A program made the position numbers and the translations under genes. Source: a virus. From it: a DNA stretch of 64,000 nucleotides. Where the stretch lies: positions 30,120-94,119 of the IMG/VR virus record IMGVR_UViG_3300017960_000001, one strand, 5' to 3'. The notes under the pieces are model-generated. The model did no database searches. It was not told the DNA's origin and saw nothing but the letters and a program-made list of their open reading frames with translations. Shown here piece after piece: positions 5,128-26,531 of the stretch (its first letter is position 1; each line of letters opens with the position of its first letter).

Positions 5128-5927
5128 TGGTGGCATCCTGGCTGATCGAGCGGTTCACGGTCGAGATCCGGCGCCTCGCGTCGTCCCTCTCCGCGGCGGC
5201 GTCGGTCGCGTCGGACGCCACCGCACCCTTCGACTTCTCCGGGGGCGACGTCGACCTCGAGCTTGAGGTGGACGGCGGGGCTCAGACTGTCACGATCGCG
5301 GTCGCCGGCATGGCCGCCCCGTCGAACGCCACCGCCGACGAGGTTGCAGCTGCGATCATCGCCGGGGGGCTGACCGGGGGCACCGCCTACGTCACCGAGT
5401 CCGGGGCGGTGATCGTTAGCACCAACACGGTGGAGGGGGGCAGCATAGAGATCACCGGCGGGGCGGCGAACGCGATCCTAGACTTCCCTGAGACGCTCGC
5501 AGAGGACCCCTACGACGACGTTTTCGGAGGGTTGCGGCGGGTACCCGGCAACACGCAGGAAGGGCAAAGCGCGAGGCGTGAGCACCCGCTGGTGACCCTC
5601 CCCTGCCAGGTTGACCGGGGGAACTGGGGCCAGATCAGTTTGAACGCCGCCGGCGGGCAGACTGTCGTCGAGCTTGTGCTGACGTTGGACCGGCGCAACG
5701 TGGTCGCCGCGGGGCTGGTCAGGGGGGACGGAACGCCGATGCTGAAACGCGGCGATCGGATCGTTCGGATCCGCAACCGCGAGGGCGAAATCGAGGAGGA
5801 GTTCTCGGTCGACGATCCGGTGTTCGTCGAACGGGTCGAGCGGTCGGGCCACGGGCTCAGCCTCCGGCGGCCGAGGTTCAACCTGTTCTACCTGCACTGC
5901 GCCCGACCGGACAAGGGGCCGGCGTGA
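5127..5927 (+). CDS. Head completion/neck-type protein with inserted beta module
   Basis: The 266-residue protein lies between the connector and the gp10-like protein, the usual place for a head completion or neck subunit. Residues about 34-119 form an insert that starts PFDFSGGDVDLELEVDGG, continues ATADEVAAAII and ends GGAANAILDFP. The same module recurs in the tail sheath and the tail-I-like protein of this phage. The remainder (residues 125-266, including TLPCQVDRGNWGQISLNAAG) is consistent with a small neck protein. The function is inferred from position. Confidence 0.6.
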   Translation: MVASWLIERFTVEIRRLASSLSAAASVASDATAPFDFSGGDVDLELEVDGGAQTVTIAVAGMAAPSNATADEVAAAIIAGGLTGGTAYVTESGAVIVSTNTVEGGSIEITGGAANAILDFPETLAEDPYDDVFGGLRRVPGNTQEGQSARREHPLVTLPCQVDRGNWGQISLNAAGGQTVVELVLTLDRRNVVAAGLVRGDGTPMLKRGDRIVRIRNREGEIEEEFSVDDPVFVERVERSGHGLSLRRPRFNLFYLHCARPDKGPA

Positions 5928-6568
5928 CGCAGATCATGATCAGGCCGCGCGGTCTACTGGCCGGCGCGATGGCTCTCCAACGATGGAAGCTGAAGGTAAA
6001 GAACGGCGTCCGGCGGGCGGTCGAACGTGAAGCCAATTTGTGCAGACGAACCATGGTTGAGGGGTTGAAGATGCAAGCCCCGGGCGGGAACCAGATCCGC
6101 CCGTTGTCCGCTATGACGATGCAGCTGCGCCGGCTCGGCAAGGGGGGCGACTCCGGCAAGCGGCGCGGGCGGTTGGGGACCGGATCCTCCAAGGCCCTGA
6201 TCGATTCCGGGGACCTGCTCGCTTCGATCAACGTACAGGACGCAGGTCAGGACGGCATGGCGTACACCGTCGGAGTCCACCGCGGCACGCGGGGCAACCG
6301 CGGCGGAAAGGACATGGTCGACCTCGCTCGGGTCCATGAGTACGGGACCGGAAAGTACACCGTCCGCGTCACTCGAAAAATGCACAAGTTCTCGAAATTC
6401 TTGGTGCACATGGGGATCCTCAGAGTGCCGTGGCGCGAGGGGCAGATCCTGCGCCGCGAGGTCCCGGCGCGTCCGTTCCTGCGACCGGGCTATGAGTTGT
6501 GGCGCGAGGAGGCGGACGAACGCTTCGACCGAGAGATCCAGCGGGTGCTATCGACGGGAGGCTTCTAG
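5924..6568 (+). CDS. Tail completion / virion morphogenesis protein (HK97 gp10-like)
   Basis: The 214-residue basic protein has the family pattern of tail completion or virion morphogenesis proteins: a helical N-terminus, a central LIDSGDLLASI, then YTVGVHRGTRG, ARVHEYGTGKYT and the C-terminal VPARPFLRPGYELW. These proteins join head to tail at the neck. It overlaps the preceding gene by 4 bases, and the tail terminator starts one base after its stop. An ATP-free assembly role is expected, and no catalytic residues are visible. Confidence 0.75.
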   Translation: MTQIMIRPRGLLAGAMALQRWKLKVKNGVRRAVEREANLCRRTMVEGLKMQAPGGNQIRPLSAMTMQLRRLGKGGDSGKRRGRLGTGSSKALIDSGDLLASINVQDAGQDGMAYTVGVHRGTRGNRGGKDMVDLARVHEYGTGKYTVRVTRKMHKFSKFLVHMGILRVPWREGQILRREVPARPFLRPGYELWREEADERFDREIQRVLSTGGF

Positions 6569-6569
6569 C

Positions 6570-7568
6570 ATGGCGACACCGACAGTGAGCAGCGCCACGC
6601 CGGACGGCGGGCTGACCCGCGGCGGCGAAGTGATTGAGATCGCGGGCACGAACTTCCGCACGGTGCCGACCCCGCCGGACGGATACCTCGGCGGCGAGGA
6701 GCAGCAAACGGTGGCGGTCTACTTCGGGGACGACCGGGCGCCGTTCGCCGCCACCGTCACCGACTCTCTGATCCACGCGAAAGCTCCGACCTACACCGGC
6801 GACTACCAGACTAAGCAGACGGTGGACGGCGAGCAGAAAGTGGTCGACGCGCTCCCGGCCGCGGTCGATCTGCGGGTGGTGAACCTCGACGACAACGGCG
6901 ATCCGATCGTGGGCGAGGAGGCGACGCTCGCCGGCGGGTACGAGTTCCGCCGGGTGGATCTCCAACAGACGGGCCAAGCCGAGCAGGTAATCCGCGAGTT
7001 TATCGAGATGCTCCGGCGCCATATCCACCGAAATACTTGGTGGACCATGCACCGGGATTATGACTCGACCCCGGAGGACTTGCTCGAATACCTGCAAGCG
7101 AAGGGGCTGCCGTTGGTGCGGTTGCAGGGGCCGACGTGGGAGGAGGACCGCGACCGGTGGATCCAAGAGGCCACCCCGGAGGACCACCCCACCGAGGCTG
7201 ACCAGTACATCCGAAACCAGCGCGAGCGGTGCGTGATTTTCGAGTTCGTGCTGGACGTGTGGTCGAACGCCGAACACCCGGCCGAGCTACTGAACCTCTC
7301 GACGGCGGTTGTGCAGATGTTCCACGATCTGCCGTGGGTCACGCTCGAGGTGAACGGAGAGCCCTGGCAATGGGAGCTTGATATGCCCCCCGACGGACAC
7401 CCCGTTTTCGACATCGGGCCGAACCTCGACGGGCTCACGAACTTCAGGTGCACGGCGATGATCAAGGGGATCGACATCTCCGGCGCGGAGCTTGCTATCA
7501 TCGAGCGCGGGTGGACGGTGTCCGATCCTGATTCACCAAAGGTCGAGGACGAGGGGCTATCGCTATAG
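6570..7568 (+). CDS. Tail terminator-like protein with N-terminal IPT/TIG domain
   Basis: I start this gene at the ATG at 6570, one base after the upstream stop; the longer in-frame ORF would be antiparallel noise over the previous gene. Residues about 5-75 resemble an IPT/TIG Ig-like domain (PDGGLTRGGEVIEIAGTNF, VAVYFGDDRAPF). From residue 130 the protein has a helix and mixed alpha/beta region, and it precedes the sheath gene, as tail terminators do. The 332-residue length exceeds typical terminators (about 130-180), and the IPT domain accounts for much of the excess. The terminator role is inferred from synteny. Confidence 0.6.
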   Translation: MATPTVSSATPDGGLTRGGEVIEIAGTNFRTVPTPPDGYLGGEEQQTVAVYFGDDRAPFAATVTDSLIHAKAPTYTGDYQTKQTVDGEQKVVDALPAAVDLRVVNLDDNGDPIVGEEATLAGGYEFRRVDLQQTGQAEQVIREFIEMLRRHIHRNTWWTMHRDYDSTPEDLLEYLQAKGLPLVRLQGPTWEEDRDRWIQEATPEDHPTEADQYIRNQRERCVIFEFVLDVWSNAEHPAELLNLSTAVVQMFHDLPWVTLEVNGEPWQWELDMPPDGHPVFDIGPNLDGLTNFRCTAMIKGIDISGAELAIIERGWTVSDPDSPKVEDEGLSL

Positions 7569-7647
7569 AGATCAAAGACTAGACGCGGGGGCTTGGTTCC
7601 TGCTAGGGTCGAAGAAAGCGGCCCCCTGACGGGCAACGGAGGAGAGC
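7569..7647 (+). other. 79-bp gap before the sheath gene
   Basis: Apart from the ribosome binding site (GGAGGAG) nothing convincing is visible. A TTGGTT hexamer near its centre has no -10 box at a usable spacing, so I do not call a promoter. Confidence 0.4.
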
Positions 7648-9927
7648 ATGGCAACCGGACGATCAAGAGTCACTTCGAAATTCCGGCAGGGTACGCGCAA
7701 CGTTACCGGCCTGCCGACGAGTCAAGGCGGGGTGGTGGCGATTACCGAGCGGGGCCCGGTCGGGCAGCGGACCGCGGTCACCTCGGCGGAATCTTTCAAA
7801 CGGACATTCGGCGGCATCACCGAGGAGGGCACGCTGGCCCACCTCATGGAGGCGTTCTACGCCCTCGCACCCGGCGCCGAGCTTTACGTGACGCGGACCT
7901 GTCACTACACCGACATCACCGACCCGAACAGCTTCACCGCGGTCGCGGCGACGCTCATGCTCGACACCGCAGGGGCGTTCGCGTCTGCCGCGTCGGTCGA
8001 CGGTACGATCGCCGGGCCATGGAACCTGCTTCCCGCGGCGCCGGACATGGACATCACGACCAACCTCGGCGGTCCGAACAGCGCGCAGATTACCTACGCC
8101 CCGGCCGCGTTCTCGAGCTTCGTCGTGTTCCCGATCGCCCCACTAGCCGGTGGCGAGAACATGACGATCGACACCGGCGACGGCAACGGGCCGCAGACGA
8201 TCACCGCGGCCGGCGGCGAGGTGTCGTTGCTGGACATGATAAACCTGATCAACGGACAGCTGCTCGGCGGTGCCGCGAAGGACGTTGGCGGGCAGCTGAC
8301 CGTCGAAACCGATCAGCACGGTTCCGGCGCCACGCTGACCTTCGCCGCGGGGGCCCCCGACCTCGCCGTGCTGCTGGGGTTGGCACCGGCGGTGCACAGC
8401 GGAACGGGCAACGTCGTCGACGCATCGGCCGCCACCCCGGCCGAGTTGGAGACGATCATCGAGGCCGCTGACGGCAACGTCGCTGTGACCGTGAACGGGG
8501 ACGACACGATCACGATCGCCACCGTGGCAACCGGCGCCACCGCGACCTTGCAGATCGGCGCCGGGTCGCCGGATCTGTCAACCATCCTCGGGATCGACAA
8601 CGTGCTGCACTCCGGCTCGGACGCCGCGGCGCAGAACACCCTCAAGGTCGACGGCAAAACCCCCGGCACCTATGCGCACGATTTGGAGATCCTGATCGCC
8701 ACCGCGAGCAACGGCAACGCCGATTACTTCGACCTGTCGGTGATGAAGGACAGCGTCGCGCAGGAGGTGTTCAAGAACGTCACGATGGACACCTCGGCTT
8801 TGCGCTACGTCGAGACGGTGATCAACGCGGCCGGGATCGGGTCGGACCTGATCGCGGTCACCGATCAGGGAGTCGGTGCGCCATGGTCGGACGCCAAGCC
8901 CGCGAGCGGGACGACCGGTCCTCTCGCCGGAGGCGACGACGGCCTCACCTCGCTGGACGATAACGACTTCATCGGAAGCTCGGCCGGCGCAACGGGGCTC
9001 TACTCGTTCGACACCCTCGAAACCCTCAGGCTGTACGCGATCCCGTACCGGGCGAGCACGGCGGTCCACGCGGCGATCAACACCTACACCGAGTCGAGGG
9101 GGAATGACTGCTACGGGTTGCACCCGACGCCGGACTCTCCGAACGACTCCGTAAACACCGCCGACCTCATGGTCACGTGGGCGCAGTCGAACACGTTCGG
9201 GCTCACCGAGTTCGCGGCGCCGCCGTGCTGGCCGTGGCCGGCGATCGCCAACCCGGACGCCGCGATCTACACCCCCTCGAATCAGTACGTCGACGCCGAC
9301 GACGACAGCTTGCTGTACGTCGAGCCGAGCATGTTGAAGATGGCGAGGTTCATCGGCAACGACCGCCAACACCCCGACGGCCTATACACCTCGGCGGCGG
9401 GCCTGGACAACGACCAGGGGATCCTGCCGATGGTCGTGGGGTTGCAGTTCTTCGACGAGGTCATGGACGCCGGCAAGCGCGACCGGCTGGCAGACGTGAA
9501 CGTCGAGCCGATCGTGAAGTTCGAGGGGACCCCGTACCATTTCGACGGCGGCGACAACTGCAAGACCACCGGCGACTGGCCGCGGCAGTGGCATACCCGC
9601 GCATCGATTCACATCGTCGAATCGATCAAGGCTGCGTGGATCGTTTACAAGCACGTGAAGAACACCACGACGATGCGACGCGAGGCTGCTCGCAACGCGG
9701 AGAAGTGGGTCAACGCAGAGGTTCCCGAGGACGCCTGGGAGACGAACGACGACGGGGCGATCGCGTACCTCGAAGAGGACGCGCCGCTGTTCTACGTCGA
9801 CACGTCCGACGAGCTGAACCCGTCCGAGGTTCGGGCGCTCGGGGAGTTCCGAGCGCGGATCGGGCTCGGGTGGGCCTACGACGCGAAGTTCATCGAGATC
9901 GAAGTCTCGCGCCCGGCGCTGCCGTAG
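7648..9927 (+). CDS. Contractile tail sheath protein
   Basis: The 759-residue protein has the sheath signature at both ends. The N-terminus contains GLPTSQGGVVAITERGPVG and SAESFKRTFGG. The C-terminus contains DVNVEPIVKFEGTPYHF and a domain ending GWAYDAKFIEIEVSRPALP. The tail tube gene follows 23 bases later. A good ribosome binding site (GGAGGAG) precedes the ATG. The protein is larger than simple sheaths because residues about 160-325 carry two copies of a beta-rich module (GATLTFAAGAPDLAVLLGL and GATATLQIGAGSPDLSTILG). It polymerises around the tube and contracts to drive it into the host envelope. Confidence 0.9.
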   Translation: MATGRSRVTSKFRQGTRNVTGLPTSQGGVVAITERGPVGQRTAVTSAESFKRTFGGITEEGTLAHLMEAFYALAPGAELYVTRTCHYTDITDPNSFTAVAATLMLDTAGAFASAASVDGTIAGPWNLLPAAPDMDITTNLGGPNSAQITYAPAAFSSFVVFPIAPLAGGENMTIDTGDGNGPQTITAAGGEVSLLDMINLINGQLLGGAAKDVGGQLTVETDQHGSGATLTFAAGAPDLAVLLGLAPAVHSGTGNVVDASAATPAELETIIEAADGNVAVTVNGDDTITIATVATGATATLQIGAGSPDLSTILGIDNVLHSGSDAAAQNTLKVDGKTPGTYAHDLEILIATASNGNADYFDLSVMKDSVAQEVFKNVTMDTSALRYVETVINAAGIGSDLIAVTDQGVGAPWSDAKPASGTTGPLAGGDDGLTSLDDNDFIGSSAGATGLYSFDTLETLRLYAIPYRASTAVHAAINTYTESRGNDCYGLHPTPDSPNDSVNTADLMVTWAQSNTFGLTEFAAPPCWPWPAIANPDAAIYTPSNQYVDADDDSLLYVEPSMLKMARFIGNDRQHPDGLYTSAAGLDNDQGILPMVVGLQFFDEVMDAGKRDRLADVNVEPIVKFEGTPYHFDGGDNCKTTGDWPRQWHTRASIHIVESIKAAWIVYKHVKNTTTMRREAARNAEKWVNAEVPEDAWETNDDGAIAYLEEDAPLFYVDTSDELNPSEVRALGEFRARIGLGWAYDAKFIEIEVSRPALP

Positions 9928-9950
9928 CGTAAAAGAGGAGGCAACCAACC

Positions 9951-10406
9951 ATGGCGAAGCCGAGGACCTATTACGACGCATTCCGCTTCCGGGCGGAGAT
10001 CGCGGGCGTGACCGCCGGACACTTCTGGAATGTCGGCCCGTTCAAAATGACCGTGAGCGGGGTCGAGGTTCCGGTGCCGCACGGCGCCGTGCTCGAGGAC
10101 CTTCCCGGTCAGGCGAAAATGCAGCCGTTCACCATCGAGGGACCGTTGTCCGAGTTGGTGGATCTCTACAATCTCTTCAAGCAGACGGTCGACGTGGCGA
10201 CCGGCCTCGGAGAGACGGAGCCGAACCTGTATCAGGACATCGACTTCGTGCAGCTGGACCGCGACGGATCCGACCTCGAAATCGTCCGGGTTTTCAAAGC
10301 CTGGGGTATCGATTACGAGATGACGAAGTTCGACAAAAAGGAGAACGACAAGCGACGGGAACTGCTCGAAATGCGGGGGCAGTATTTCCAGCGGCTACCC
10401 GTCTAA
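9951..10406 (+). CDS. Tail tube protein
   Basis: The 151-residue protein directly follows the sheath, as tube genes do. It has the gp19-like pattern: a strand-rich N-terminus (FRFRAEIAGVTAGHFWNVG), a central PFTIEGPLSELVDLYNLFK, and a C-terminal strand pair with EIVRVFKAWGIDYEMTKFD. It forms the inner tube ejected on sheath contraction. A GGAGG site lies just upstream. Confidence 0.85.
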   Translation: MAKPRTYYDAFRFRAEIAGVTAGHFWNVGPFKMTVSGVEVPVPHGAVLEDLPGQAKMQPFTIEGPLSELVDLYNLFKQTVDVATGLGETEPNLYQDIDFVQLDRDGSDLEIVRVFKAWGIDYEMTKFDKKENDKRRELLEMRGQYFQRLPV

Positions 10407-10457
10407 CCAACGTCCACCAACTCCCAACGAGGGGCAATCGGCAGAGGGAGGTAACCC

Positions 10458-11261
10458 ATGACCCAAGGCACACTTGCCAGCGGGCTCGTCGTCGAGTTCC
10501 GCGGCACCAAAAACCGCGAGCTTGCAGCGTTCCGCAAAACCCTGGAGGAAAAGGGGCACGCGGTCGCGCTCACCGAGATGCTGAACGCTTGCACCGAGCA
10601 GGTAGTCGACCCCGGGCCGACGAACATTCTCGACGAGGACGGCAAACCAGACTGGTCGAAGGCGTTGTCCGGCGACCGGCTACAAGCTGCGATCCTCTTG
10701 CGGATCGCGTCGTTCCCAGAGGGGCACAAGTACAAGCTGGACCTGAAGTGTCCGCGGTGTCCCGCGTCGCGTCCGTCGTTCCCGAAGGTGCTCGACCTGC
10801 GCGCGATCCCGAACGGCGATCTTCTGTGGTATCCGATGCCGGAGGAGGCGATCGAGTCGGTGCGGAAAGAGCAGCCGTTCGTGTGCACCGTCGACGGCAA
10901 GATGGTGAGCTTCCTGCTATCCGACGGGCGCATGGAGGCCCAGCTGGAAGAAGTCTCTCGGGGCGACCGGGTCGAGGACGCGGCGATCGCTCAGGCCCGG
11001 CTACGGATCACCGAGGTGGAGGACGTGCACGCGAACGACGTGCACCGGTGGCTCGGTGATCTGACCGTGGCCGAGTACGAGGTGCTCGAGGATGCAATGG
11101 ACGCGGTCGAGGGAGGCGTCGACATTGCGATCGAGGCGGTGTGTCCCGAGGGTCACGAATTCCAGGCCGCGGTCCCTTTCGACGTGTCGTTCTGGCGGCC
11201 GCAAGAGGGGATGCGGAATCGGCGGAAGGAGAGGCTGGCCGCAGCGCGATCTGGGGTGTGA
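10458..11261 (+). CDS. Tail assembly chaperone / baseplate-type protein (T4 gp26-like) with zinc ribbon
   Basis: The 267-residue protein sits between tube and tape measure, where myophages encode assembly chaperones or T4 baseplate-family (gp26-like) proteins. A probable split zinc site is visible: LKCPRCPASRP near residue 95 and AVCPEGHEF near residue 230, the latter followed by the strand AAVPFDVSFWRPQ, typical of this family. The stop codon overlaps the GTG start of the next ORF (GTGTGA) in the -1 frame, which echoes the two-frame chaperone genes of other phages. Confidence 0.6.
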   Translation: MTQGTLASGLVVEFRGTKNRELAAFRKTLEEKGHAVALTEMLNACTEQVVDPGPTNILDEDGKPDWSKALSGDRLQAAILLRIASFPEGHKYKLDLKCPRCPASRPSFPKVLDLRAIPNGDLLWYPMPEEAIESVRKEQPFVCTVDGKMVSFLLSDGRMEAQLEEVSRGDRVEDAAIAQARLRITEVEDVHANDVHRWLGDLTVAEYEVLEDAMDAVEGGVDIAIEAVCPEGHEFQAAVPFDVSFWRPQEGMRNRRKERLAAARSGV

Positions 11262-11557
11262 ACGAAGCGATCCGGGTCAGCTGGACCCGGGCCCTAGCGA
11301 CCGTCGTCGGCGCCGAGCCTCTGTTCGAGTTGTTCGACGAGATGGAGGTCGCAAAGTTGCAGCTGGAACTGTCCTACACCTCGCCGCTCGGCGGTGGCGG
11401 GATCATGAGCTACGCCGAGGCGGGCGAGCTTTCAACGCGGGAGAGTTTCGTAATCCTCGACGTGCTCGCCGACCGGCGGGAGGCCGAGGCTGACCTGTCC
11501 GTGCGACCGTTCGAGTACGTGGTGAAATCGATCGCCAAGATGTTCGGAGGTCGGTAG
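11258..11557 (+). CDS. Second tail assembly chaperone-like protein
   Basis: The 99-residue product begins VNEAIRVSWTRALATVVG at a GTG that overlaps the preceding TGA. It is helical and acidic (ELFDEMEVAKLQLEL, ADRREAEADLSV) and immediately precedes the tape measure gene. Lambda-type phages make their second chaperone as a -1 frameshift extension of the first. Here the frame relation is -1, but I see no canonical slippery heptamer, so coupled re-initiation is the simpler reading. Confidence 0.6.
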   Translation: MNEAIRVSWTRALATVVGAEPLFELFDEMEVAKLQLELSYTSPLGGGGIMSYAEAGELSTRESFVILDVLADRREAEADLSVRPFEYVVKSIAKMFGGR

Positions 11558-14107
11558 GTGGCTAGCTCGTTCAAGACTTTCTTCGACGTAATCGGCCGCG
11601 ACCTTGCGACTCCGGTTTTCGCCAAGGTCGGCGCCGGCCTCCGCGCTCTCCAAGGACAATCGGCCGCGGCCCAAAAGACTGCGATGGGGGCCGGGGCGGC
11701 GACGGCCAAAGCTCATAACATGATGGCAAAATCGTTCTCGACCATGGCGGTCGGGGGCGGTTTCCTCAGTGTCGGCCGCGGGCTGATCGACGCCCTAGGC
11801 AGGACCACCGAGATCGCGGGCGAGTTCGGGCTCGGACTCGCGGCCGTCGGTGCCGTCACCCGGGCCACCGCCGACGAGATGAGGCAGCTCGAGGACGCCG
11901 CGATCCAAGCCGGTATCAAAACGCAGTTCTCGCCGGTCGAGGCGATCCAAGGGTTGCAGGACTTGGCGACCGCGGGGCAGGTTTCCGCCGACGCTATCAC
12001 GTCCCTGGATCACGTCCTGAACCTCGCGGCTGGGTCGTTGGGGCAAATGACCGTGTCCGAATCGGCGCAGGCTGTGGTGGGCTCTCTGAACGCCTACGGG
12101 ATGGGGGCGGAAAAGGCCCGGGTGGTCACCGACAAGCTGCTAAGGATCACGCAGCTGACGAACTTCCAAGCGCGTGACTTTGCGGTCGGTCTGTCCAAGG
12201 CGGCGGCCGCCGGTGCGACGTTCGATCAGAAGATGGACGACGTCCTGATCACGATGGGTCTGATCAGAAACAGGAACATCGACGCCTCGGTGGCGGCGAC
12301 CGCCTACCGAGCTTCGCTACGCCGGCTCGGTGCCCACCAGGGAGCGCAACAAGCTCTCCAAAAGAAGGGCATCGAGGTGTTCGAGGGCGAGGAGCGGCAG
12401 ATGCGATCCGCGGTCGACATCATGCTCGACCTCGCCGAGAAAACAAAGACGTGGACCGACGAGGAACGAAACCGGATTGTGGTGCAGTCCTTCGGCGCTC
12501 GCGGGTTGTTCGCGTTCAACGCGATCCAGAAGGCAACCTATACCCGGATGATCCACGGGACCAAGGTCACCCTCGAAGGACGCGAGGCGATCGCCGCTCT
12601 CCGCGAGGAAATGGAGAACGCCGGGGGCACCGCGGTCGCGTTCAAGAAGAAGCTGCTCGAAACCTACGCCGGCCAGAAAACTCTCCTCCGCGGGACACTC
12701 GAAACGATTCAGGTCGTGGTCGGCAAGCCGCTCACCAAGTTGCTCGGACCTGTCGTCGGGTTCGTCACCGAGATGCTGAACAAGTTCATCAAAGCTTGGC
12801 AGGGTCTACCCGAGCCTGTGCAGAAAGCGGTGATCGGTTTCGTGGGGATCGTCGGTGTCGTGTCCGCGATCGCCGGCGGGTTCCTCATCCTCCACGGCAT
12901 CATGAACCTGCTCGGGATTTCGTTCACCGGGTTGGCGATCACGATCGGCAAGGTGCTGCTACTCGCGGGCCCGTTGGTGCTGGCGATCTCGGCCCTCGGC
13001 CTCGGCGCCGGCGGCATCATTCGAACGCTACAAAAGAACCTCGGCGGGTTGGGGGAATCCTGGGATTCAATGGCGGACAAGGCGAAGCTCGGAATGCAGG
13101 GAGTGATCGAGCTATTGCGGACCGGCGCGCTCGCAGAGGACACCTTGAAGAAGCTCGGCGAGGACCGCAACAAGGGGGTGGCGAAGTTCCTCGAAATGAT
13201 GACCGGTGTAATAGGGAAAGCGAAGGCGTTTTTCAAAGGAGTTAAGGAGGGTTACGACTCCGCTCTCGCCGGACTACAGGAACCGTGGAACCGACTGAAA
13301 CAGGCGATCGAAAGTGTGTTCGGCCGGTGGTTCGACCTCACCGGTCAAGGCACCAAGTCGGTGGACGGCTGGGCGGCGAAGGGGCGCAAATTCGGAGGGG
13401 TGATCGCCGGTGCAACCGAGGGCGTGCTCGAACTGGCTACGCACATGATCGAGCTTGGCGGGCAGATTCAGGAGGCAATGGCCGACGTCACGATGGAGGA
13501 CATCATAGCCGGCGCGCAGGAGTTGTTCGAACTACTGAAGCAGATCGCGTCCGCGTTGGGGACGATCGCCTCTGGTGTGAACAAAACCGCCTCGGTGCTC
13601 GGCGGCGGCGGTGGCGAACTACGATCCGCGTTGCTCGGCGACGCCTCGGAGATGTCGCTTCAGCAGATGCACCAAGCGATCGATTTCGCGGCGACGCAGG
13701 GCGACGCGCCGCAGGTCCGCGAGGCGTGGCGGACGCAGGTCAAGGCCCTCGAATTGATGAAGCAAACCCGGGGGTTCGGCGCCGGCGAAGCTGGCGAACA
13801 GCGATACCGCAAGGCCCTCGAATCTGTGTTCCGACGTCAGGCCGCGGCGGGCTACATGATCGCCACCGGCGACGTGGAGAAAGGCACCCGGGCGCAGGAC
13901 ACGGTGACGCAGCTTGTCGACATGATGCTCGCCCGCCAGGCTCAGTTCTACGCGCAGCAATTGAAACGCCCTCTGAAAATCGATTTGAAGGTGGGCACCC
14001 GCGAGCTTGGAAACATCGTCACCGACCTGCAAGAGGAGGTGATCGAGGAAGGGCTCGCCGGCGGTGCGGCCGGGACGCCAGCACCGGCGCCGGCGGGAGG
14101 TCAGTAG
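11558..14107 (+). CDS. Tail tape measure protein
   Basis: The 849-residue GTG-started protein carries the TP901-type tape measure domain. Residues about 90-330 include ELGxxT-like helices such as [36 protein letters not shown] and [13 protein letters not shown]. The central region (about 425-490) is hydrophobic, with two or three membrane-spanning helices ([37 protein letters not shown]), as expected for a protein that inserts in the host membrane. At roughly 0.15 nm per residue its length predicts a tail of about 125 nm, an estimate rather than a measurement. Confidence 0.88.
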
Positions 14108-14110
14108 GCT

Positions 14111-17025: not shown

Positions 17026-17805
17026 GTGCCAGTGTGGGCCCCCAGCGGTGACGTGATCTGCTTCCCGGTGCCGGACATCCCGAGCACCGACGACCTCTGC
17101 TTCCCGGGCGGGTTCTGCCTGTCCCACGTGTGGAACGGGATCAATCAGATTCCGAGCGCGGCCGACGTGTGGCTGCAATTCTACTCGCAGATCGGGCCGG
17201 CGATGTCATTCCTGGCTCCGTTCTTCAACGTGCTCGACACGTGCCTCGCAATCTTCCGCTGCGTGCAGGCGGTGCCCGACGCGATCACGAATCTCGACCC
17301 CACCGAGTTGTTCCAGTGTGTCCCCGAGCTTGTCGAAAAAATCAACGATCTGCTCGGGTTGATTCCCCAACTCTCGATCCCGCGAATGGTGAAACGGATC
17401 CTCGAAGGGTTGGCGACTCTGCTCCGGGCGGTCGCGTCGGACCTGCAATACATCCAACAGCAACTAGCCAGAATCGCAGACCAAATCGATCGGGCCGCGG
17501 ACCTCAACGACGTGACTATGTCGGGGTTCCTCAGCTGCGCCGAGTCGACGGTGAACGACACCACGTTGAGCACCGCCGAGGCGTTGAAGGGGATCGGCCG
17601 GATCATCCTCCTCTGCAACCTGCTAATTTCTCTGTTCGGCGGCCCAGAGATCCCGTGCTTCTCGTCGTTGTTGGAGGACCTCGACGTGCTCGACACGGTG
17701 ATCGATGCGTTGCTATTGCTGGCGAATTTGATCGACGAGATCGCCGACATGATACCGGACCCGCAGCTGGCGATCACGTTGCTGCTCGAAAGTCAGGAGT
17801 GCTAG
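17026..17805 (+). CDS. Hydrophobic, cysteine-rich baseplate-region protein of unknown function
   Basis: The 259-residue GTG-started protein has ten cysteines, unusual for a cytoplasmically assembled tail component, and several hydrophobic helices (SFLAPFFNVLDTCLAIFRC, IILLCNLLISLFGG, DALLLLANLIDEIADMI). A helix at about residue 145 (LQYIQQQLARIADQIDRAA) could form a coiled coil. It lies between spike and gp25 genes, a slot usually occupied by baseplate parts. A membrane-active component delivered with the spike is possible, but I recognise no family. Confidence 0.65.
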   Translation: MPVWAPSGDVICFPVPDIPSTDDLCFPGGFCLSHVWNGINQIPSAADVWLQFYSQIGPAMSFLAPFFNVLDTCLAIFRCVQAVPDAITNLDPTELFQCVPELVEKINDLLGLIPQLSIPRMVKRILEGLATLLRAVASDLQYIQQQLARIADQIDRAADLNDVTMSGFLSCAESTVNDTTLSTAEALKGIGRIILLCNLLISLFGGPEIPCFSSLLEDLDVLDTVIDALLLLANLIDEIADMIPDPQLAITLLLESQEC

Positions 17806-18183
17806 ATGTCAAGTGACCGACACGGATTCGGGATCGCGGTTCCGCTGACCGTCGGGTCGACCGACCTGATCCTCGTCCGCGGCAACGACCTGCTCGCGTC
17901 GGCGGTGCTCATGTCGCTGTCGATCCACCGGGGCGAGCTACGCTACGACACCACAAAGGGATCGCGGCTCCGCGAGTTGAAGCACAGGCACTTCCCGGGG
18001 ACCACCGGCGACGCCGTGGCGACCTCGCTTGTGTCCGAGGTGCTGACCCGCGAGGAACCGGCGATCCAAGTGTCGCCGGCCGAGGTCGACCGGGACAAGG
18101 ACGAGTTCAAGGTCTTGGTGTCCTACACCGAAAAAAGCTATGATGGGGCAGACTCGCGTCGCACCGTAACCTTGGAGGTTTAG
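17806..18183 (+). CDS. Baseplate wedge protein (gp25/gpW-like)
   Basis: The 125-residue protein has the size and motifs of gp25-like wedge proteins: VLMSLSIHRGELRYDTTKGS (the short-wedge signature region) and a strand-rich C-terminus with DKDEFKVLVSYTE. It is followed by baseplate J, the conserved order in contractile systems. Gp25 initiates sheath polymerisation. Confidence 0.8.
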   Translation: MSSDRHGFGIAVPLTVGSTDLILVRGNDLLASAVLMSLSIHRGELRYDTTKGSRLRELKHRHFPGTTGDAVATSLVSEVLTREEPAIQVSPAEVDRDKDEFKVLVSYTEKSYDGADSRRTVTLEV

Positions 18184-18184
18184 C

Positions 18185-19696
18185 ATGGCCGCACCCGCGA
18201 TCGACTACGACCGCACCGCCCGGGACTTCGACAGTCTCGACGATCGGCTGTGGGATCTCATGTTGTCGGTGTTTCCCAACCTGACCGACCGCGACCGCAA
18301 CAACACTCTCAACCTGCTACGGTGGGCCTTCTCGGACGCCGGCAACAACAACGACTATTACATGAGCAGGTTGTTCCGTCAGGCATTCGTGCCGACCTGC
18401 ACCGAGCGAAAATGGATGCAGATCCTGGGTCGCCGGACCGGGTACGAGTTGGGCGGCGTCGGGGCGGCGTCGGTGGACCTCACCATAACGCTTCAGAATG
18501 GCCCCCTCGCCGGCGATGTGACGATCCCGGCCGGTACATTGATCCGAACGAAGGACGCGACTGCGCCGGTGATAGGAGAGCTTCAGGCGGACGTGGTGAT
18601 CACCGCGGGCTCGACCTCGGCGACCGGCAGCTGGCGCCACGCGCAGAGCCGAACGTACACCGCGACGTCGAACGGGCTCGCCGATCAGGAGTTCTACCTG
18701 CCGGAGGGATCCTACATCGACGGGTCGGCCGCTTTCTCGACGGTGCTCGGCGCATGGGAGGAGCAGGACACGCTGGCCTTCTCGTCCGGCATCGATCGGG
18801 ACTTCACGATCCGGGTCGACCAGAACGATCGCGCCACCGTCCGCACCGGCGACGGGGTTAACGGGGCGATCCCTCAGGCTGGCAGCTTCACCATCTCCTA
18901 CGAGATTGGAGGGGGCGAGGCCGGCAACGTCGACCCGGGCTCGCTCGAGCGCATGCCGTCCGGGTTCACCGATTCCTTCGGGACGACCGCGGTGCTGACC
19001 GTCACCAACGCCGAGGCGGCCGACGGCGGGACGGCGCGCGAGACTGTGAACGCGGCGCGGATCCAGATTCCGCTGACCAACACGGCGGCGAGAACGTCGA
19101 CCACCCGCGAGGACTTCGAGGTTCACGCGCTGGAAATCGTCGGGGTCGCCCGGGCGCTCATGTTGACCGCCGACGAGGCGAGCTTCGTCCCCGAAAACGA
19201 GGGCCGGCTGTACGTCGTCCCGACCGGCGGCGGCACCCCGTCCTCTGACCTACTCGCTCTGGTCGAAACGGCGGTGACGGAAACCTACCCACCGCCCCCG
19301 ACGTTCGAGACTCTCGTCGTCGCTCCGACCTACCTCGACATCGACGTGGTCGCGTGGATCTGGCTGGCCGAGGGCTACTCCGCGGCGGCGGTCAAGGCAT
19401 CGATCGAGGCGAACCTCGAGGCGTGGTTCTCTCCGCTCGACACCGACGGATCGCCAAACGCCAACGTCGACTTCGGCTACAACTTCAAGGACGCCGACGG
19501 GGCGCCCTCCGGCGAGGTTCCGTGGTCGGACATCTTCAACGAGGTGCGCGATACGACCGGGGTGAGGAAGGTGGGCGCCGGCGCCGACGACTTCACCCTC
19601 AACGGCGCGCGAGCGGACGTGTCGATCGCAAACCATGAGTTCCCGCGGCTCGGCACGGTGACGATCTACAACGGGGAAACCGGGACGGTGATCTAA
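18185..19696 (+). CDS. Baseplate wedge protein J (gp47-like)
   Basis: The 503-residue protein matches baseplate J: a helical start (MLSVFPNLTDRDRNNTLNLL), a central region with AGDVTIPAGTLIRTKDA and SFTISYEIGGGEAGNVDPGS, then TTREDFEVHALEIVGVARAL and the C-terminal VVAPTYLDIDVVAWIWLAEG. Together with gp25- and I-like proteins it builds the wedges around the hub. Its last base is the A of the next ATG. Confidence 0.85.
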   Translation: MAAPAIDYDRTARDFDSLDDRLWDLMLSVFPNLTDRDRNNTLNLLRWAFSDAGNNNDYYMSRLFRQAFVPTCTERKWMQILGRRTGYELGGVGAASVDLTITLQNGPLAGDVTIPAGTLIRTKDATAPVIGELQADVVITAGSTSATGSWRHAQSRTYTATSNGLADQEFYLPEGSYIDGSAAFSTVLGAWEEQDTLAFSSGIDRDFTIRVDQNDRATVRTGDGVNGAIPQAGSFTISYEIGGGEAGNVDPGSLERMPSGFTDSFGTTAVLTVTNAEAADGGTARETVNAARIQIPLTNTAARTSTTREDFEVHALEIVGVARALMLTADEASFVPENEGRLYVVPTGGGTPSSDLLALVETAVTETYPPPPTFETLVVAPTYLDIDVVAWIWLAEGYSAAAVKASIEANLEAWFSPLDTDGSPNANVDFGYNFKDADGAPSGEVPWSDIFNEVRDTTGVRKVGAGADDFTLNGARADVSIANHEFPRLGTVTIYNGETGTVI

Positions 19697-22600
19697 TGAG
19701 GCGACCGTATATCGACTGGGACCCCGCCGAGAACCGCGAGCTTGTGCTGGCGCGGGACGGCGGGCCCTACGTGTTCACGGCCGACGACCACCAAACTCTG
19801 AGGAAGCTCGTCACGTTCAACGGCGGGCCCCGATCGATCAACTACGACTCGCCTGTCCACGCGATCCAGAGGTTGCGGTTCGCCGCCGGTTCGCCCGGCG
19901 GGGTGATCGTTGATCAGTGGCCGGTGATGCCGAACAAGTGGGGCTACGCCGGGCACCCGTCCGGCGAGCCTGAGCCTCAGTTCCTCTGCAACAACTACGG
20001 CTCTCCCTACACCCGATCTGGGGCGCGACTTCCCCTGCGTGGCTACCTCGCCACGGGGCTCGGCGGGATCGAAACATCGATCGCGGCGAAGTGGACCGAC
20101 GCGCTCCTGCGCGACGCACCCGAGACTCCGGTCCGCGGGGCGTGGACCGGGGTGGTGCTGTCCGCGCTGAACCTGACCTCGATTTTCCCGGGGTCGCACG
20201 TCGACTTCTATTCGGTCCACGGCAAGCGCGCCGGCGACACCGGATGGAAGCACAGGGGCGGCGACACGTTCACCACCGCGGAGTCGATCGCGGTGGCGAA
20301 CGACATCTTTTCGAGCGGCAACAAGGTGGTGGTCGACCCCGGTCCTCTGGACGACATCACAGTCCGCGCCCTGTACGAGTCCGGGGGATGGCAACCCCTC
20401 CACACCACCGCCAACGGGGACGCGACTCAGGGGGGCGCTCACGCGGCCGAGGACATCGCCGCGGTGGCGGCGTTGGTGCAAGGTGGAGCGGCGGTTTACG
20501 GGGGCTATCCTCCCGCGGATCCGCAGACCCGCTATTACTTCACCGAGCTTGAGCTGGCGCAGTTCGAGCCGTTCGTGATGAACAAGGCGGTGTGGGAATA
20601 TCGAGACTTCCTCGACGCATTCAATCACCTCTACTTGTTCCCGTTTCCTCCTCCGTATGCGGCATTTGGGAGCACGGTCTACTCGTACCCGGACCTGATC
20701 CACCCGCCGCTCGGATCGACGCACGCCCCGCTGAACCTGCGGGTCAACGACCCCGACCTCGGGTGGTGCGTCGAGATGGGGCAGGACTCCTACTTGTTGG
20801 GCTACGGTGCCGACGAATTCTGGCCGGTGGACACGCAGTCTCCGACCGAGCTTTGCACGTCTGACCCGTGGACGTTTACCGACGATGCACCGTTCGCTTT
20901 CGCTATCAGGCTGAAGCTCGAAGGGGCGTCGTTCGAGTACCCGGAAAAGAACATCTTCAGCTTCGGCGACGTGTACCAACGGGGCAGCAATTTCAGCAAC
21001 GGGATCGGCATTGCGATCCAAGTCGGTTTTATCAACGTCCGCTATTGGGACAACGGTTTCTGGAATCTGCTACAGGCGCAGGTCTCTCCCGAGGTGCTCT
21101 CGTCGGCGCCGCTCGACCTCGCGGTGGCGTGGACCGGGGCCGATGGTGATCGGTCCGGCTACGGTCCGAGGATCCTGCGGTTGCTGGTGAACGGGCGCAC
21201 GGTCGCCGCCGTCGAGACGTCCGGTGTAAATCAATACTTCGCCGGGACGGCTCGCGCCTTCATCGGGCACTCGCCTGAGTCTGGACCGTACCCGGGTTTC
21301 GAGGGCAAGTTCCGCCGGGCCCGGGTGTGGTGCTACGACCTGTCCGACGACGAGCTTCGCCGGGCGTTCGACGACGCTGAGTCTCCGGTGGTGACGTCGG
21401 GGAACTTCGACGAGCCGGCGGCCGACGGCGCACCGGGAGAGGCCGAGGGGTGGACGTGGTCCGAGCACGGATCGGAGAACCCGCTCGCCGCGTTCCGTAG
21501 CAGCCCGTGGGCGACGCCGGAGGAGGAGTTCGGGTGGGGAGACGAGGCTCCGTCGGTCACGTTCGAGGGGCCGACATGGGATCTGAGGATCGCGGTTCAG
21601 CATTCGGTGGGGGCGGTGACCCCGGCGCCCTCGAATCGGATCATCCTCTACAACAACGACTATCGACAATACCTCAGGACCGGGTGCGGGATCAGGATCC
21701 AAGGGTCGACCGGGCTCGACGGATACTGGACCGTTTCGTCTTTCTGGTATGCCGGTTCGCACACCTACATCGAGACGGTCGAGGACATCCTGACCACGAC
21801 GGCCGACGGGCTCTGTGAGATCCCGCGGGTGGCCGATTTCTCGTCGCACGTGTTCACCGGGCAGTGGGCTCAGTTCTGGGATATTTGGTTCGACGACCCG
21901 GCCGCGGTCACCGCCGACGAGCTTGCCCTCGTCCTGAACTCCTACTTGCAGCACACCACCGCCCGGGCGCGTGGCGACAACGTGACCCTGCGATCGAACT
22001 ACGCCGGGTCGACGGTCCTACTGCAATGGGATTTCGAGGGGAACACTGGCTCGGATTGGGGGGTGGACGACGTCGGGATCGCCGACACCTGGGACGACGT
22101 GTCCGCGATCGCAGCTGTGTTCGCCGAGGGGTCGGACATCGCCGGCACCGCCGAGACGTTTTTCTGGTTCGAGCAATACGACGATTTCGAGAGCGCGGGC
22201 CCCGTCGAGGCCGAGTTCCTCTCCTACTACGAGGTGCTCAACGGTGTCGGTGTGCCGCGGGTCCTGCCCCGCGACGCGGACACGTTCGGCGAGGGGTGGA
22301 ACGACGACCCGCTCTCGCTACCGGTGGGGGACTGGTACTCGCCGCAGCAACGCAACGGCAGGATCTACGGGGACCCGGTCAGCTTCCCGTTGCAGATCAA
22401 GGCGAACCGCGATCAACTCTGGGCCTGGGACTACTCCGATCCGACCAACCTGTACGAGGTGGCGGTGACGTCGGGGATCTACGACACACCGGCCGCGCTG
22501 CTCACCGACCTGCAAACTCTGTGGGCGGCGCAATTCCCTCTGTCGCCGAACACCTTCGGCGCCGAGGAGCAGCCCGACGGGACCTACCGGATCTGGCTCG

Positions 22601-23058
22601 GGTGGGACGGGGTGACCGCGGTTCCGACGGTCGCCGCGGCGCAGCTTTACGCGGGGCCGAATCTGTCCTACGAGGAGGGAGCCCGCGAAGCTCTCGGGTT
22701 CAACGGCACCGGACCGAACGACACCACCGGAGAGATCCGGGCACCAGAGGAGGCGATCGAGGGGACGTCGCCGCCGTGGGACGAGAGCGAGCTATACGGA
22801 TCGGACAAGTGGACCCTCGCCTCGTACTCGCTATATGCGATCGGAGGCGGACATCAGGACGACCCGATCTGGCCGGGGCTACAACCGGCGATCTTCGACG
22901 TGTCGATCGGTTCACCTCAGGGCGTCGAGCTGATCGACCCGGCGGGGTGGGGCGGCGCGTTGATCGATCCGCTGACCTACGTGTGGACAGATGACTGCTT
23001 GTTCGATACCGACGTCGGGCCGGGCGAGTTGTTCGAGGACTTCGAGGAAGGATGGTAA
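19696..23058 (+). CDS. Large adhesin-like tail protein with LamG-type domain
   Basis: The 1120-residue protein follows baseplate J. Residues about 390-560 look like a concanavalin/laminin-G sandwich: FAFAIRLKLEGASF, SAPLDLAVAWTG, ILRLLVNGRTVAAVETS and FRRARVWCYDLSDDELRRAF, the last being the typical LamG ending. Further on are strand-rich stretches with TADELALVLNSYLQ (about 745) and AREALGFNGTGP (about 995), which recall the recurrent module of the neck and sheath proteins. No hydrolase motif is visible. A sugar-binding baseplate or fibre role is inferred. The gene ends 3 bases before the next. Confidence 0.65.
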   Translation: MRRPYIDWDPAENRELVLARDGGPYVFTADDHQTLRKLVTFNGGPRSINYDSPVHAIQRLRFAAGSPGGVIVDQWPVMPNKWGYAGHPSGEPEPQFLCNNYGSPYTRSGARLPLRGYLATGLGGIETSIAAKWTDALLRDAPETPVRGAWTGVVLSALNLTSIFPGSHVDFYSVHGKRAGDTGWKHRGGDTFTTAESIAVANDIFSSGNKVVVDPGPLDDITVRALYESGGWQPLHTTANGDATQGGAHAAEDIAAVAALVQGGAAVYGGYPPADPQTRYYFTELELAQFEPFVMNKAVWEYRDFLDAFNHLYLFPFPPPYAAFGSTVYSYPDLIHPPLGSTHAPLNLRVNDPDLGWCVEMGQDSYLLGYGADEFWPVDTQSPTELCTSDPWTFTDDAPFAFAIRLKLEGASFEYPEKNIFSFGDVYQRGSNFSNGIGIAIQVGFINVRYWDNGFWNLLQAQVSPEVLSSAPLDLAVAWTGADGDRSGYGPRILRLLVNGRTVAAVETSGVNQYFAGTARAFIGHSPESGPYPGFEGKFRRARVWCYDLSDDELRRAFDDAESPVVTSGNFDEPAADGAPGEAEGWTWSEHGSENPLAAFRSSPWATPEEEFGWGDEAPSVTFEGPTWDLRIAVQHSVGAVTPAPSNRIILYNNDYRQYLRTGCGIRIQGSTGLDGYWTVSSFWYAGSHTYIETVEDILTTTADGLCEIPRVADFSSHVFTGQWAQFWDIWFDDPAAVTADELALVLNSYLQHTTARARGDNVTLRSNYAGSTVLLQWDFEGNTGSDWGVDDVGIADTWDDVSAIAAVFAEGSDIAGTAETFFWFEQYDDFESAGPVEAEFLSYYEVLNGVGVPRVLPRDADTFGEGWNDDPLSLPVGDWYSPQQRNGRIYGDPVSFPLQIKANRDQLWAWDYSDPTNLYEVAVTSGIYDTPAALLTDLQTLWAAQFPLSPNTFGAEEQPDGTYRIWLGWDGVTAVPTVAAAQLYAGPNLSYEEGAREALGFNGTGPNDTTGEIRAPEEAIEGTSPPWDESELYGSDKWTLASYSLYAIGGGHQDDPIWPGLQPAIFDVSIGSPQGVELIDPAGWGGALIDPLTYVWTDDCLFDTDVGPGELFEDFEEGW

Positions 23059-23061
23059 CTC

Positions 23062-23766
23062 ATGAGCAGTGTTGATTGGACGGAGCAAGGAAACTCACTC
23101 TCGGCCGGCATCGTGGCCCGCGGGGCGACCGGCGGGATCACGCCGCCGAACGGTGGAGGCTCCGCGGTGTACGCGATGAACTGTCTGGACGGGACGGTGA
23201 TCGGCGGCGTCGCTCTCCGCGTCGCGCTGTCGGACTACAACCCGACCGCGAAAGGTGCGTCGGTCCGGGGCACGGTGAAGAAGCTTTCGAGCGCGTCCAA
23301 CACAGGCTTCACCCCGTTCCTATTCTGCATGTGCGGGGGCACGGACATCGACGACAACGCCTATATTCTCGGCCTCGAAAACCGGCACCCGTACCGGATC
23401 GTTTTGGTGAAGGGATCGCTGCTCGCCGGTGTTCCCGAGGCGGTCGACGGTGCCTACCTGCGACGGTCCTCCGACGAGTACCAGATCACCGAGGACAAGC
23501 ACCACCACCTCAGGCTCGACGCGATCGCACAACCCTCCGGGGACGTGTACTTGCAGGTCTACGAAAACGACCTCGACGTCAACCCTGTCACCGCCCCGGT
23601 GTGGACGGCGATCCCGGGAATGGCTCAGTTCGTGGACGACGTCGCGGGGATCAACTCTGGCTCGGTACCGTACACCGCCGGTTACCTGGGGTTCGGGTCG
23701 ATCTTCCAAGAGGCGGTGTCAACCCGTGTAGCGTTCGACCACTTCCAAGCTCTGAGGCAGACCTAG
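23062..23766 (+). CDS. Putative tail appendage protein
   Basis: The 234-residue protein is beta-rich without membrane segments. Its order of strands (NCLDGTVIGGVALRVAL, GASVRGTVKKLSS, HHLRLDAIAQPSGDVYLQVY, then TAGYLGFGSIFQ) suggests a single concanavalin-like jelly roll, the fold of carbohydrate-binding phage proteins. This fold guess is weak. It sits between two other putative fibre or baseplate genes. Confidence 0.55.
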   Translation: MSSVDWTEQGNSLSAGIVARGATGGITPPNGGGSAVYAMNCLDGTVIGGVALRVALSDYNPTAKGASVRGTVKKLSSASNTGFTPFLFCMCGGTDIDDNAYILGLENRHPYRIVLVKGSLLAGVPEAVDGAYLRRSSDEYQITEDKHHHLRLDAIAQPSGDVYLQVYENDLDVNPVTAPVWTAIPGMAQFVDDVAGINSGSVPYTAGYLGFGSIFQEAVSTRVAFDHFQALRQT

Positions 23767-23768
23767 CG

Positions 23769-24239
23769 ATGGGGATCACTCCACCACTCCCGGGGACGCC
23801 GTCCGACGGGCAGCTGCCCCCGATGCCGGACCCGCCGAAGGGTGACCCGACGGTGTACCGCGGAGACGGTACCTTCTTCAAAGCGAGCCGGGCAATTCTG
23901 ACCGGTCGCCGCGAGGACGCGGATGGGGTTTATCGGTTCATCCTCGGCGCCGACGATCCGAACGAGGTTGTCGAGCTTTCCGAGGGCGGATCGGAGGTGT
24001 CGGCGGTGATCGACTTGACCGACGCCGACCTGATCAGCTTCAACGCCGAGGCGGTGGTGCCTGCGGTGCCGGCCGGGGCGAGTGAGGCGTGGGTTGTCAG
24101 CATCCTGATCGACGGGGTTCTGCTCGCCCGGCACGACCTCGCCGCCGAGCAAACCACCGATCTCTCTGACCTCGGCGCGCCGGTTCGTCGGTACACCGGC
24201 GAGCACGAAGTAACGCTCCGCTTTTGGTGGCAGGTGTAG
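23769..24239 (+). CDS. Putative fibre accessory protein
   Basis: I start at the ATG at 23769, just after the upstream stop, which gives 156 residues. The N-terminus is Pro-rich (PPLPGTPSDGQLPPMPDPPK) and includes VYRGDGTFFKA, a pattern found at the start of short fibre or collar proteins. The rest is a probable beta sandwich ending EVTLRFWWQV. The function is unknown. Confidence 0.55.
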   Translation: MGITPPLPGTPSDGQLPPMPDPPKGDPTVYRGDGTFFKASRAILTGRREDADGVYRFILGADDPNEVVELSEGGSEVSAVIDLTDADLISFNAEAVVPAVPAGASEAWVVSILIDGVLLARHDLAAEQTTDLSDLGAPVRRYTGEHEVTLRFWWQV

Positions 24240-24242
24240 ACC

Positions 24243-26531
24243 ATGGGAATCACGACCGGACAGCTGCTCGCAATGCTCTCCTCGGAGGAGGCGAGCGTCG
24301 CAACGATCGTCGGGGACTTCGCGCTCGTCATGCGGGCCCCGTTGCCCGACGAAGTGCAGGTCCCGCTCGGGTCGACGGTGGCGCTCAGGGTGGTCGCGCT
24401 CGAGGGGGATCCGGTCGTCGCCGGCGAGGGGGTTTCCGAACTGGAAATCCGGGTCGACGGGACTCTCGTTTTCGACCTCACCGGAGGGTTGTTCGTCGAC
24501 GTGGATTGGCAGGGGGCCGGGAACGCTCAGGCTCCGCACACCGCAACCGATCCGTACACCTTTCATGAGGTGACGCTGGACCCGACGTCGCCGCCTCAAT
24601 GGACCACCGAGCAGGTCGTGACCGTCGAGGTGTCCGGCGAGGATCACCTGTCGAACACGTTCTCGGAGAGCTACAGTTTCACCGCGCTGGACGTCACACC
24701 GCCGCAGGTTGTGTCGGCCGAGGCGATCGATCGACAGCAGGTCCGGGTCACGTTCTCGGAAGCAATGGCGACGACCCCGCAGAACGGCGCCGCGGAGGTG
24801 ACGTCGACGAACGCCGGCCCGTTCAACCTCTCTGGCGGTGAGACTCTCATCGTGGCGATCGGGGGCGAGCAGCAAACGCTAACCTTCGATGCGCCGATGT
24901 TCCTCGCTCCGGGGGCGGCGACCGACGCCGAGGTCGCGTTCGCTATCTCAGCCTTGCTGGACGGCGCCGCTGGCTCAGAGGCCGCGGGCGGGGGTGTCAC
25001 CATCGCCACCGACGACCGCGGCGACTCAGTCTCGCTTCAGGTCCTCGGAGGGACGGCGAATGCAGTGCTCGGGTTTCCGGTCGCGGCGGCCTACGGATCC
25101 TCGGCCTACGTGCTCGCGGCCGAGAACTTCACGTTCACCCGGCACAACGTCTTTCCAGAGGTGGCGGTCAGCCTGACGGCCGAATCGGTGCAGCTGGTCG
25201 ACGGGTCCGGCGATACTCAGGTGGACGTCTCGACGCAGTGGGCCATGACCCCGGGCGCACCCTACCGCGTGACGGTCGACGACGACGTCGAGGACGCGCA
25301 TTCTGTGCCGATCGACCCCGACTACCTATCGGCCGAGTTCGACGGTTGGAGCCCGCCGTGGCCGGCGAGGCGGGACGCGAGCCTCGAGGTCCCGGCTGAC
25401 CTGTACGAAAAGGACGCCACCGGGCACGCGACCGCGATCATCAATTGCTTCCAAGAGGTCGAGGACCTGATCCTCTACGACATCGACACGCTGATCGATC
25501 CGATCGACCCGGACCTTGCGTCGGACGCGGAGATCGACCTGCACCTGACCGAGTTGGGGAACCCGTTCGATTGGGCCGACCTCGACCTGACCGCGGCGCA
25601 ACGACGCAAGCTCGCCGAGTTGTTGCCGACCCTGTACCAGTACCGCGGGACGGCGCAGGGGATAGAGGCTGCGATCCGGTTGCTACTGGAAATCGAGGTC
25701 GAGGTGGTGCCGCATTGGGCCGAGGTCTGGGTGCTCGGCGAGGACCTCCTCGGAGATTACTACCCGGCGCAAGTATTGTCGGCCAACCCGCAGACCTACA
25801 ATCTTTCGGCGGCGTCGCTCGACCTTTGGATTGCGGTGGACGGGGGGCACACGATCCAGGGAGTCGACACCGGCGCGCCGAGCTTCACGGTCCCGGGGCC
25901 GGTGGCCTCCCTGTTCACCGCCGGCACGATCTTCCGGGTGGTCGACTCTACTGGCAACGACGCGACCTATGAGGTCGACGCGGCCGGCTCGACCGACACC
26001 GGCGACGAGACGATCATCCCGCTGACCACCACCCCGCCGAGCGCGCTGGCGGACGGGCGCATCGTCGACCGGATCGAGTTCTCGAACGTGGCGGGGATCG
26101 ACTTCGCCACCCCGACCGCGGCGACGGCCGACGAGGTCGCCACGGCGATCGCGGCCCGCACGGAAGCAGGCGCAGCTGCGCTCGATCCCGGGGGCGGTAC
26201 GGTGGTCGCTGTGATCTCGACCAACCCGACGGGAACGATCCAAGTAGTAGGGGGCACCGCCAACGCGGTGCTCGGTTTCGATACGAGTCTGCACAGTTCG
26301 ACGGGCGGTTGTGTCCTCGGTCCGACAGACTCTCGCGGGATTCGAACCTTTGACATCGTGACGAACGAAACGCTATCGTCTTTGGAGGAGTCGTTGATCG
26401 AACGGATCGCGGTTCGCTTCAAGATGGTCAACGAACACTTCGGCAGGATCCGCACCGGCTACGTGGTTTCCGACGACGGAATCTGGCGGCTCGGATCAAG
26501 CCGGCTAGGGGACGACACGGTCCTCGGCTGA
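24243..26531 (+). CDS. Tail protein I-like baseplate protein with nested Ig-like and repeat modules
   Basis: Residues about 395-510 match tail protein I (P2 gpI-like): CFQEVEDLILYDIDTLID, LPTLYQYRGTAQGIEAAIR and LLLEIEVEVVPHWAEVWVLG. Ahead of it lies an Ig-like SbsA/Big_5-type domain starting near residue 157 (DVTPPQVVSAEAIDRQQV, FSEAM), which appears split by the recurrent module at about 193-280 (PFNLSGGETLIVAIGGEQQ to GGTANAVLGFP). A second module copy, at about 600-690, ends GGTANAVLGFD. The 762-residue length is therefore several times that of ordinary tail-I proteins (about 180). Confidence 0.72.
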   Translation: MGITTGQLLAMLSSEEASVATIVGDFALVMRAPLPDEVQVPLGSTVALRVVALEGDPVVAGEGVSELEIRVDGTLVFDLTGGLFVDVDWQGAGNAQAPHTATDPYTFHEVTLDPTSPPQWTTEQVVTVEVSGEDHLSNTFSESYSFTALDVTPPQVVSAEAIDRQQVRVTFSEAMATTPQNGAAEVTSTNAGPFNLSGGETLIVAIGGEQQTLTFDAPMFLAPGAATDAEVAFAISALLDGAAGSEAAGGGVTIATDDRGDSVSLQVLGGTANAVLGFPVAAAYGSSAYVLAAENFTFTRHNVFPEVAVSLTAESVQLVDGSGDTQVDVSTQWAMTPGAPYRVTVDDDVEDAHSVPIDPDYLSAEFDGWSPPWPARRDASLEVPADLYEKDATGHATAIINCFQEVEDLILYDIDTLIDPIDPDLASDAEIDLHLTELGNPFDWADLDLTAAQRRKLAELLPTLYQYRGTAQGIEAAIRLLLEIEVEVVPHWAEVWVLGEDLLGDYYPAQVLSANPQTYNLSAASLDLWIAVDGGHTIQGVDTGAPSFTVPGPVASLFTAGTIFRVVDSTGNDATYEVDAAGSTDTGDETIIPLTTTPPSALADGRIVDRIEFSNVAGIDFATPTAATADEVATAIAARTEAGAAALDPGGGTVVAVISTNPTGTIQVVGGTANAVLGFDTSLHSSTGGCVLGPTDSRGIRTFDIVTNETLSSLEESLIERIAVRFKMVNEHFGRIRTGYVVSDDGIWRLGSSRLGDDTVLG

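Follow-up and report, generated by a model that had tools for sequence, protein, structure and literature searches.

A small module of predicted flagellin-like fold recurs in four virion proteins of an uncultured tailed phage and behaves like a bolt-on part

Recurrence of FliD-like domains in phage virion proteins is already known, with examples in sheath, nozzle and auxiliary capsid proteins. In Vibrio phage XM1, the tail sheath protein gp6 carries an insertion domain (InD; PDB 7kh1/7kjk) that resembles FliD D3 and was thought to be unique and host-derived (PMC10457771). Phages Adele, phiTE and Sf14 possess a lateral sheath domain whose fold is also found in podovirus nozzles, auxiliary capsid proteins, FliD and flagellin (PMC12846349), and the auxiliary capsid protein gp36 of crAss001 contains an FD domain that is FliD/FliC-like (PMC10172136). 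Adhesive or stabilising roles have been proposed for extra sheath domains (PMC9230969), and the same paper cites Fraser et al. (2006) for the proposal that promiscuous phage Ig-like domains bind carbohydrates weakly.

Here we describe a module of ~86 residues that one uncultured tailed phage carries in four of its structural proteins. The insert in its sheath is of the XM1 type, placed in the N-terminal domain and related in sequence to the XM1 InD (E about 0.001-0.003); the module profile itself matches the XM1 InD at residues 123-187 (E 0.0013). The XM1 domain, however, was reported as a single copy in a single protein. Similarly, the remark on Adele, phiTE and Sf14 concerns one fold that recurs in different virion proteins, and our Foldseek hits include the phiTE sheath, but it is a single sentence on fold likeness across phages that offers no sequence family, multi-protein virion or evidence of gain and loss. 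The crAss001 FD domain is another FliD/FliC-like fold in a virion protein, yet it belongs to one protein and is larger (residues 75-237). Phage Ig-like domains, as represented by that citation, likewise appear to be accessory domains spreading among structural proteins, but with a different fold, the module having a helix between its strands and a GGxANAxLGF tail. What is new, and has no precedent in the literature searched, is that a single sequence family occupies several proteins of the same virion and can be seen present, absent, relocated and nested.

The DNA belongs to a 94,119-base IMG/VR virus record (IMGVR_UViG_3300017960_000001), of which the 64,000 nucleotides from position 30,120 to 94,119 were analysed (hereafter the window). 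Contractile tail genes (neck, sheath, tube, tape measure and baseplate) occupy 3832-28980, and the major capsid protein gene lies immediately upstream of the window. The neck protein holds one module copy, the tail sheath two and a leading half-copy, the tail-I-like protein two, and an 1120-aa protein one partial copy:

5127-5927, plus strand: neck protein, 266 aa; C-terminal core (residues ~145-255) phrog_14218-like, resembling phage neck/head-completion proteins
5226-5486, plus strand: module copy 1, neck residues 34-120; missing from shorter neck homologs
7648-9927, plus strand: tail sheath protein, 759 aa, phrog_15814 family
7969-8625, plus strand: whole sheath insert, residues ~108-326; exactly missing in sheaths L018 and L019
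8143-8355, plus strand: module copy 2, sheath residues 166-236, diverged
8383-8568, plus strand: module copy 3, sheath residues 246-307, a short form without the first strand pair
19696-23058, plus strand: 1120-aa baseplate-region protein; homolog in a syntenic cousin 916 aa, with two module copies
21580-22026, plus strand: composite in the 1120-aa protein, residues ~629-777: strand pair, nested small beta-domain and a half with TADELALVLNSYL; the profile score of the module half falls on residues 731-777
24243-26531, plus strand: tail-I-like protein, 762 aa; VTFSEAM-type domain (Big_5-like by eye) and weak P2 gpI-like domain
24819-25076, plus strand: module copy 4, tail-I residues 193-278, within the VTFSEAM-type domain; missing there in homologs L106 and L126
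25797-26282, plus strand: composite module copy 5, tail-I residues ~519-680, split by a ~75-aa domain; kept in the syntenic cousin

A detection profile trained on other viruses only, with window sequences excluded, found six copies in these four proteins at 20-63 bits (E 8e-19 to 2e-5): neck residues 35-120 (E 8.8e-14), tail-I residues 193-278 (E 7.7e-19) and 617-679 (E 1e-9), sheath residues 166-236 (E 5e-6) and 246-307 (E 2.7e-8), and residues 731-777 of the 1120-aa protein (E 1.6e-5). The profile matched nothing elsewhere in the window, and shuffled or reversed controls reached at most 7.3 bits. When 19 window structural proteins were compared by hhalign, the neck (99.2%), tail-I-like (99.3%), sheath (95.7%) and 1120-aa (50%) proteins stood apart from the other 15 (at most 1.3%). 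The profile confirms the single neck copy and the sheath and tail-I pairs that a preliminary description had proposed from the letters of the window, hhalign picks out the same four proteins, and the profile scores, set against the controls, bear out its view that the same module sits in unrelated virion proteins; the copies are homologous. Its suggestion of diverged relatives in the 1120-aa protein survived in part: one (TADELALVLNSYLQ) stood, as part of a longer composite, whereas the ALGFNGTG segment was rejected (p=0.24; hhalign probability 0.5%). A Pfam search with the modules returned no match.

In the predicted structure of the neck monomer, the module (pLDDT 82-97) consists of strands at residues 42-48 and 51-57, a helix at 70-79, strands at 85-89, 95-99 and 107-111 and a final helix at 113-118, and the remainder of the model matches phage neck and connector proteins (Foldseek). 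The leading PDB hits of the module were V. cholerae flagellins, E. coli FliD, the phiTE sheath and P. aeruginosa FliC, with weak E-values (best 1e-3, range 1e-3 to 0.2) and agreement among the top hits; against viral models, baseplate J-like, kelch and sheath proteins were found. By these models the module belongs with the flagellin/FliD D2-D3 domains, FliD D2-D3 and the outer domains of flagellin being the nearest folds. An Ig-like domain was considered and set aside, given the central-helix topology, the flagellin and FliD top hits and no Ig beta-sandwich. The order of elements had been likened at the outset to the flagellin IN motif, and both the predicted fold and profile-profile comparison with decoys uphold the resemblance. 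Strand pair, IN-type helix and strands follow one another as in Flagellin_IN (PF07196), and pairwise hhalign against FliD/flagellin IN segments from genomes gave 83.7%, versus 0.9% for the reversed profile and at most 1.0% for 60 column shuffles; since the segments were hand-picked around Pfam matches, this comparison is supportive, not conclusive, of a kinship between module and IN motif. The Pfam model of Flagellin_IN itself did not match the module above cut-off.

The module is inserted into intact carrier proteins, varies in placement and copy number, and can be lost. It lies outside the core of each family, as the first reading of the sequence had supposed, for orthologs without the segment keep their flanks intact. 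An insert of ~220 residues is present in 58 of 60 aligned sheath homologs; the remaining two, the near-identical L018 and L019 from two metagenomes, have five residues in its place and both flanks intact. Because these two are nested among insert-bearing sheaths in the sheath-core tree (12-row group, 100% SH-aLRT), the insert was lost in their lineage, and the L019 contig holds no module copy at all. The window sheath copies are too diverged for a firm pairwise link to other copies, and are tied to them through homologous sheaths, in which the same alignment position holds the canonical GGTANAxLGF. For the sheath model (pLDDT 88.7), the matches were sheaths of phages and other contractile systems. 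As a separate observation, phrog_15814 is annotated as a family of unknown function, but its members here are tail sheaths. Among neck proteins, phrog_14218-type homologs of 172-196 aa have no module and a homolog in a Terriglobia MAG has one. A module-masked tail-I query found L106, L107, L126 and L117 (E about 1e-24), whose modules are N-terminal (four in L117), with none at the window positions.

Nesting was seen twice. In copy 5 of the tail-I-like protein, the first strand pair (residues ~519-540, TYNLSAASLDLWIAVDGG) is parted from the helix (residue ~622) by a second small beta-domain of ~75 aa, giving the order strand pair, domain (GTIFRVVDSTGNDATYEV...), helix half (ATADEVATAI...GGTANAVLGF). 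The composite of the 1120-aa protein has the same order, its module again split by a second small beta-domain, and collinear comparison of the two composites scored 67 versus 33 +/- 5.5 for shuffles, none of 1000 of which reached it. The nested part alone was weak in this comparison (p=0.008), and was rejected as a sequence family of its own, phmmer giving no link between its two copies. The 1120-aa protein also contains a LamG-like stretch by eye (residues ~380-570, window ~20830-21400), missing from the 916-aa homolog.

In the syntenic cousin, found on contig C12 of a Terriglobia MAG, nearly all these tail genes have homologs and their order is kept; the same four proteins carry modules there, as does a 211-aa protein. 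Similarity between window and cousin is 0.49 for the orthologous module copies and 0.48 for the protein core in the neck, 0.44 and 0.46 in tail-I, and 0.33 and 0.49 in the sheath. Spread is therefore old in this lineage: window and cousin share the placements, their module copies are as alike as the cores in the neck and tail-I proteins, though less alike in the sheath, and the orthologous copies predate any recent transfer. In the head-tail adaptor (window 3832-5127), two similar N-terminal beta-domains (residues ~1-95 and 96-190) are FN3-like by eye; the cousin homolog aligns only with the part that begins at residue 96, as if another accessory domain had been duplicated in tandem. The 93-kb Terriglobia MAG contig (L190/L191) sits in an Acidobacteriota bin, and its syntenic cousin of the virion gene block offers a lead to host range.

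Other phages carry the module elsewhere. Relatives of baseplate J have one copy near residue 180; some have a second in tandem, L065 has its second at residue 367, and the window baseplate J has none. The 211-aa protein adjoins the capsid gene in the cousin and is decoration-like; it and a 213-aa protein of L155 hold one module each, and counterparts of 108 and 110 aa in L195 and the window phage hold none. A module search of IMG/VR matched at least 289 contigs, mostly in sheaths among the 80 examined, and 29 genome contigs, mostly of Myxococcota, also contained it. Among isolates, one of 50,697 phage records had the module, Myxococcus phage Mx1, where two baseplate-region proteins carry it, one of them kelch and the other J-like; whole-protein tblastn against isolate phages gave no neck or tail-I match and two weak sheath matches. 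In one Deltaproteobacteria MAG, two modules lie in a cellular protein that is probably secreted and has thrombospondin type 3 (TSP3) repeats (L145:1673-3949).

Spread between genes, also proposed in the preliminary description, is supported by differing placement in orthologs and by identities between modules of unrelated carriers, which reach 73% for the J protein of L065 and a PKD-domain protein of L090. No recent copying was seen at the nucleotide level, the best pairs from different carriers having about 0.6-0.7 nucleotide identity. In a poorly resolved module tree of 86 columns, the window neck and tail-I copies group with the cousin neck (SH-aLRT 94). Since related phages have the module in the same virion proteins, in other ones, or not at all, it behaves like a bolt-on part moving between phage genes; judged by its sequence matches, its presence and absence in orthologs of several unrelated virion proteins mark it as a promiscuous accessory domain.

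We consider it likely that the module folds independently, as an accessory domain of flagellin/FliD D2-D3 type, and that, inserted in several virion proteins and spread by recombination, it serves as an outward-facing add-on for weak contacts. It would comprise a strand pair, a helix, three strands and a short terminal helix with the GGxANAxLGF motif, and would have entered tolerant positions in the virion proteins of an uncultured contractile-tailed phage group. Transfer between genes and phages would proceed by illegitimate or homologous recombination, with multiplication in tandem and, at times, clean loss. Since the carrier proteins stay intact around their inserts, and by analogy with the XM1 sheath, whose structure is solved (PMC10457771), the copies would probably be exposed on the particle surface. 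There, repeated many times, they may make numerous weak contacts with host surface polymers, an adhesive role, or with neighbouring virion subunits, and would not be part of the assembly or contraction machinery.

The main rival, which we find somewhat doubtful, is that the module is structural cement, its lateral contacts stabilising virion subunits and binding neither host nor environment. Extra sheath domains have been proposed to stabilise the sheath in other phages (PMC9230969, discussing phage 812), and in crAss001 it is by the FliD-like FD domain that the auxiliary capsid protein touches the major one (PMC10172136); however, the module sits on proteins with different neighbours, in neck, sheath, baseplate and head, and is dispensable in L018/L019. 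Acquisition by each phage from the flagellar genes of its own host, as proposed for XM1, would account for the flagellin/FliD kinship but is improbable, as the phage copies are far closer to each other than to the IN motifs of flagellar proteins, and the module HMM barely picks up those motifs. It is most improbable that the segments are ordinary parts of each family core, alike only in being beta-rich and of low complexity: the window sheath copies do barely match others pairwise, but flanks persist without the segment and controls do not score.

Beyond the accessory domain of this phage, we tentatively suggest, as something short of probable, that one promiscuous flagellin-like family could decorate a single particle on its head, neck, sheath and baseplate and be a general surface add-on of many uncultured contractile phages, several of them in Myxococcota or Acidobacteriota bins, with flagellar outer domains and phage domains drawing on a common pool of modules. 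A profile now exists for a domain that is absent from Pfam and common in uncultured phages. Scattered remarks on single structures become one sequence family whose gains, losses, moves and nesting can be traced, and its natural pairs with and without the module make the function of such add-on domains for the phage testable.
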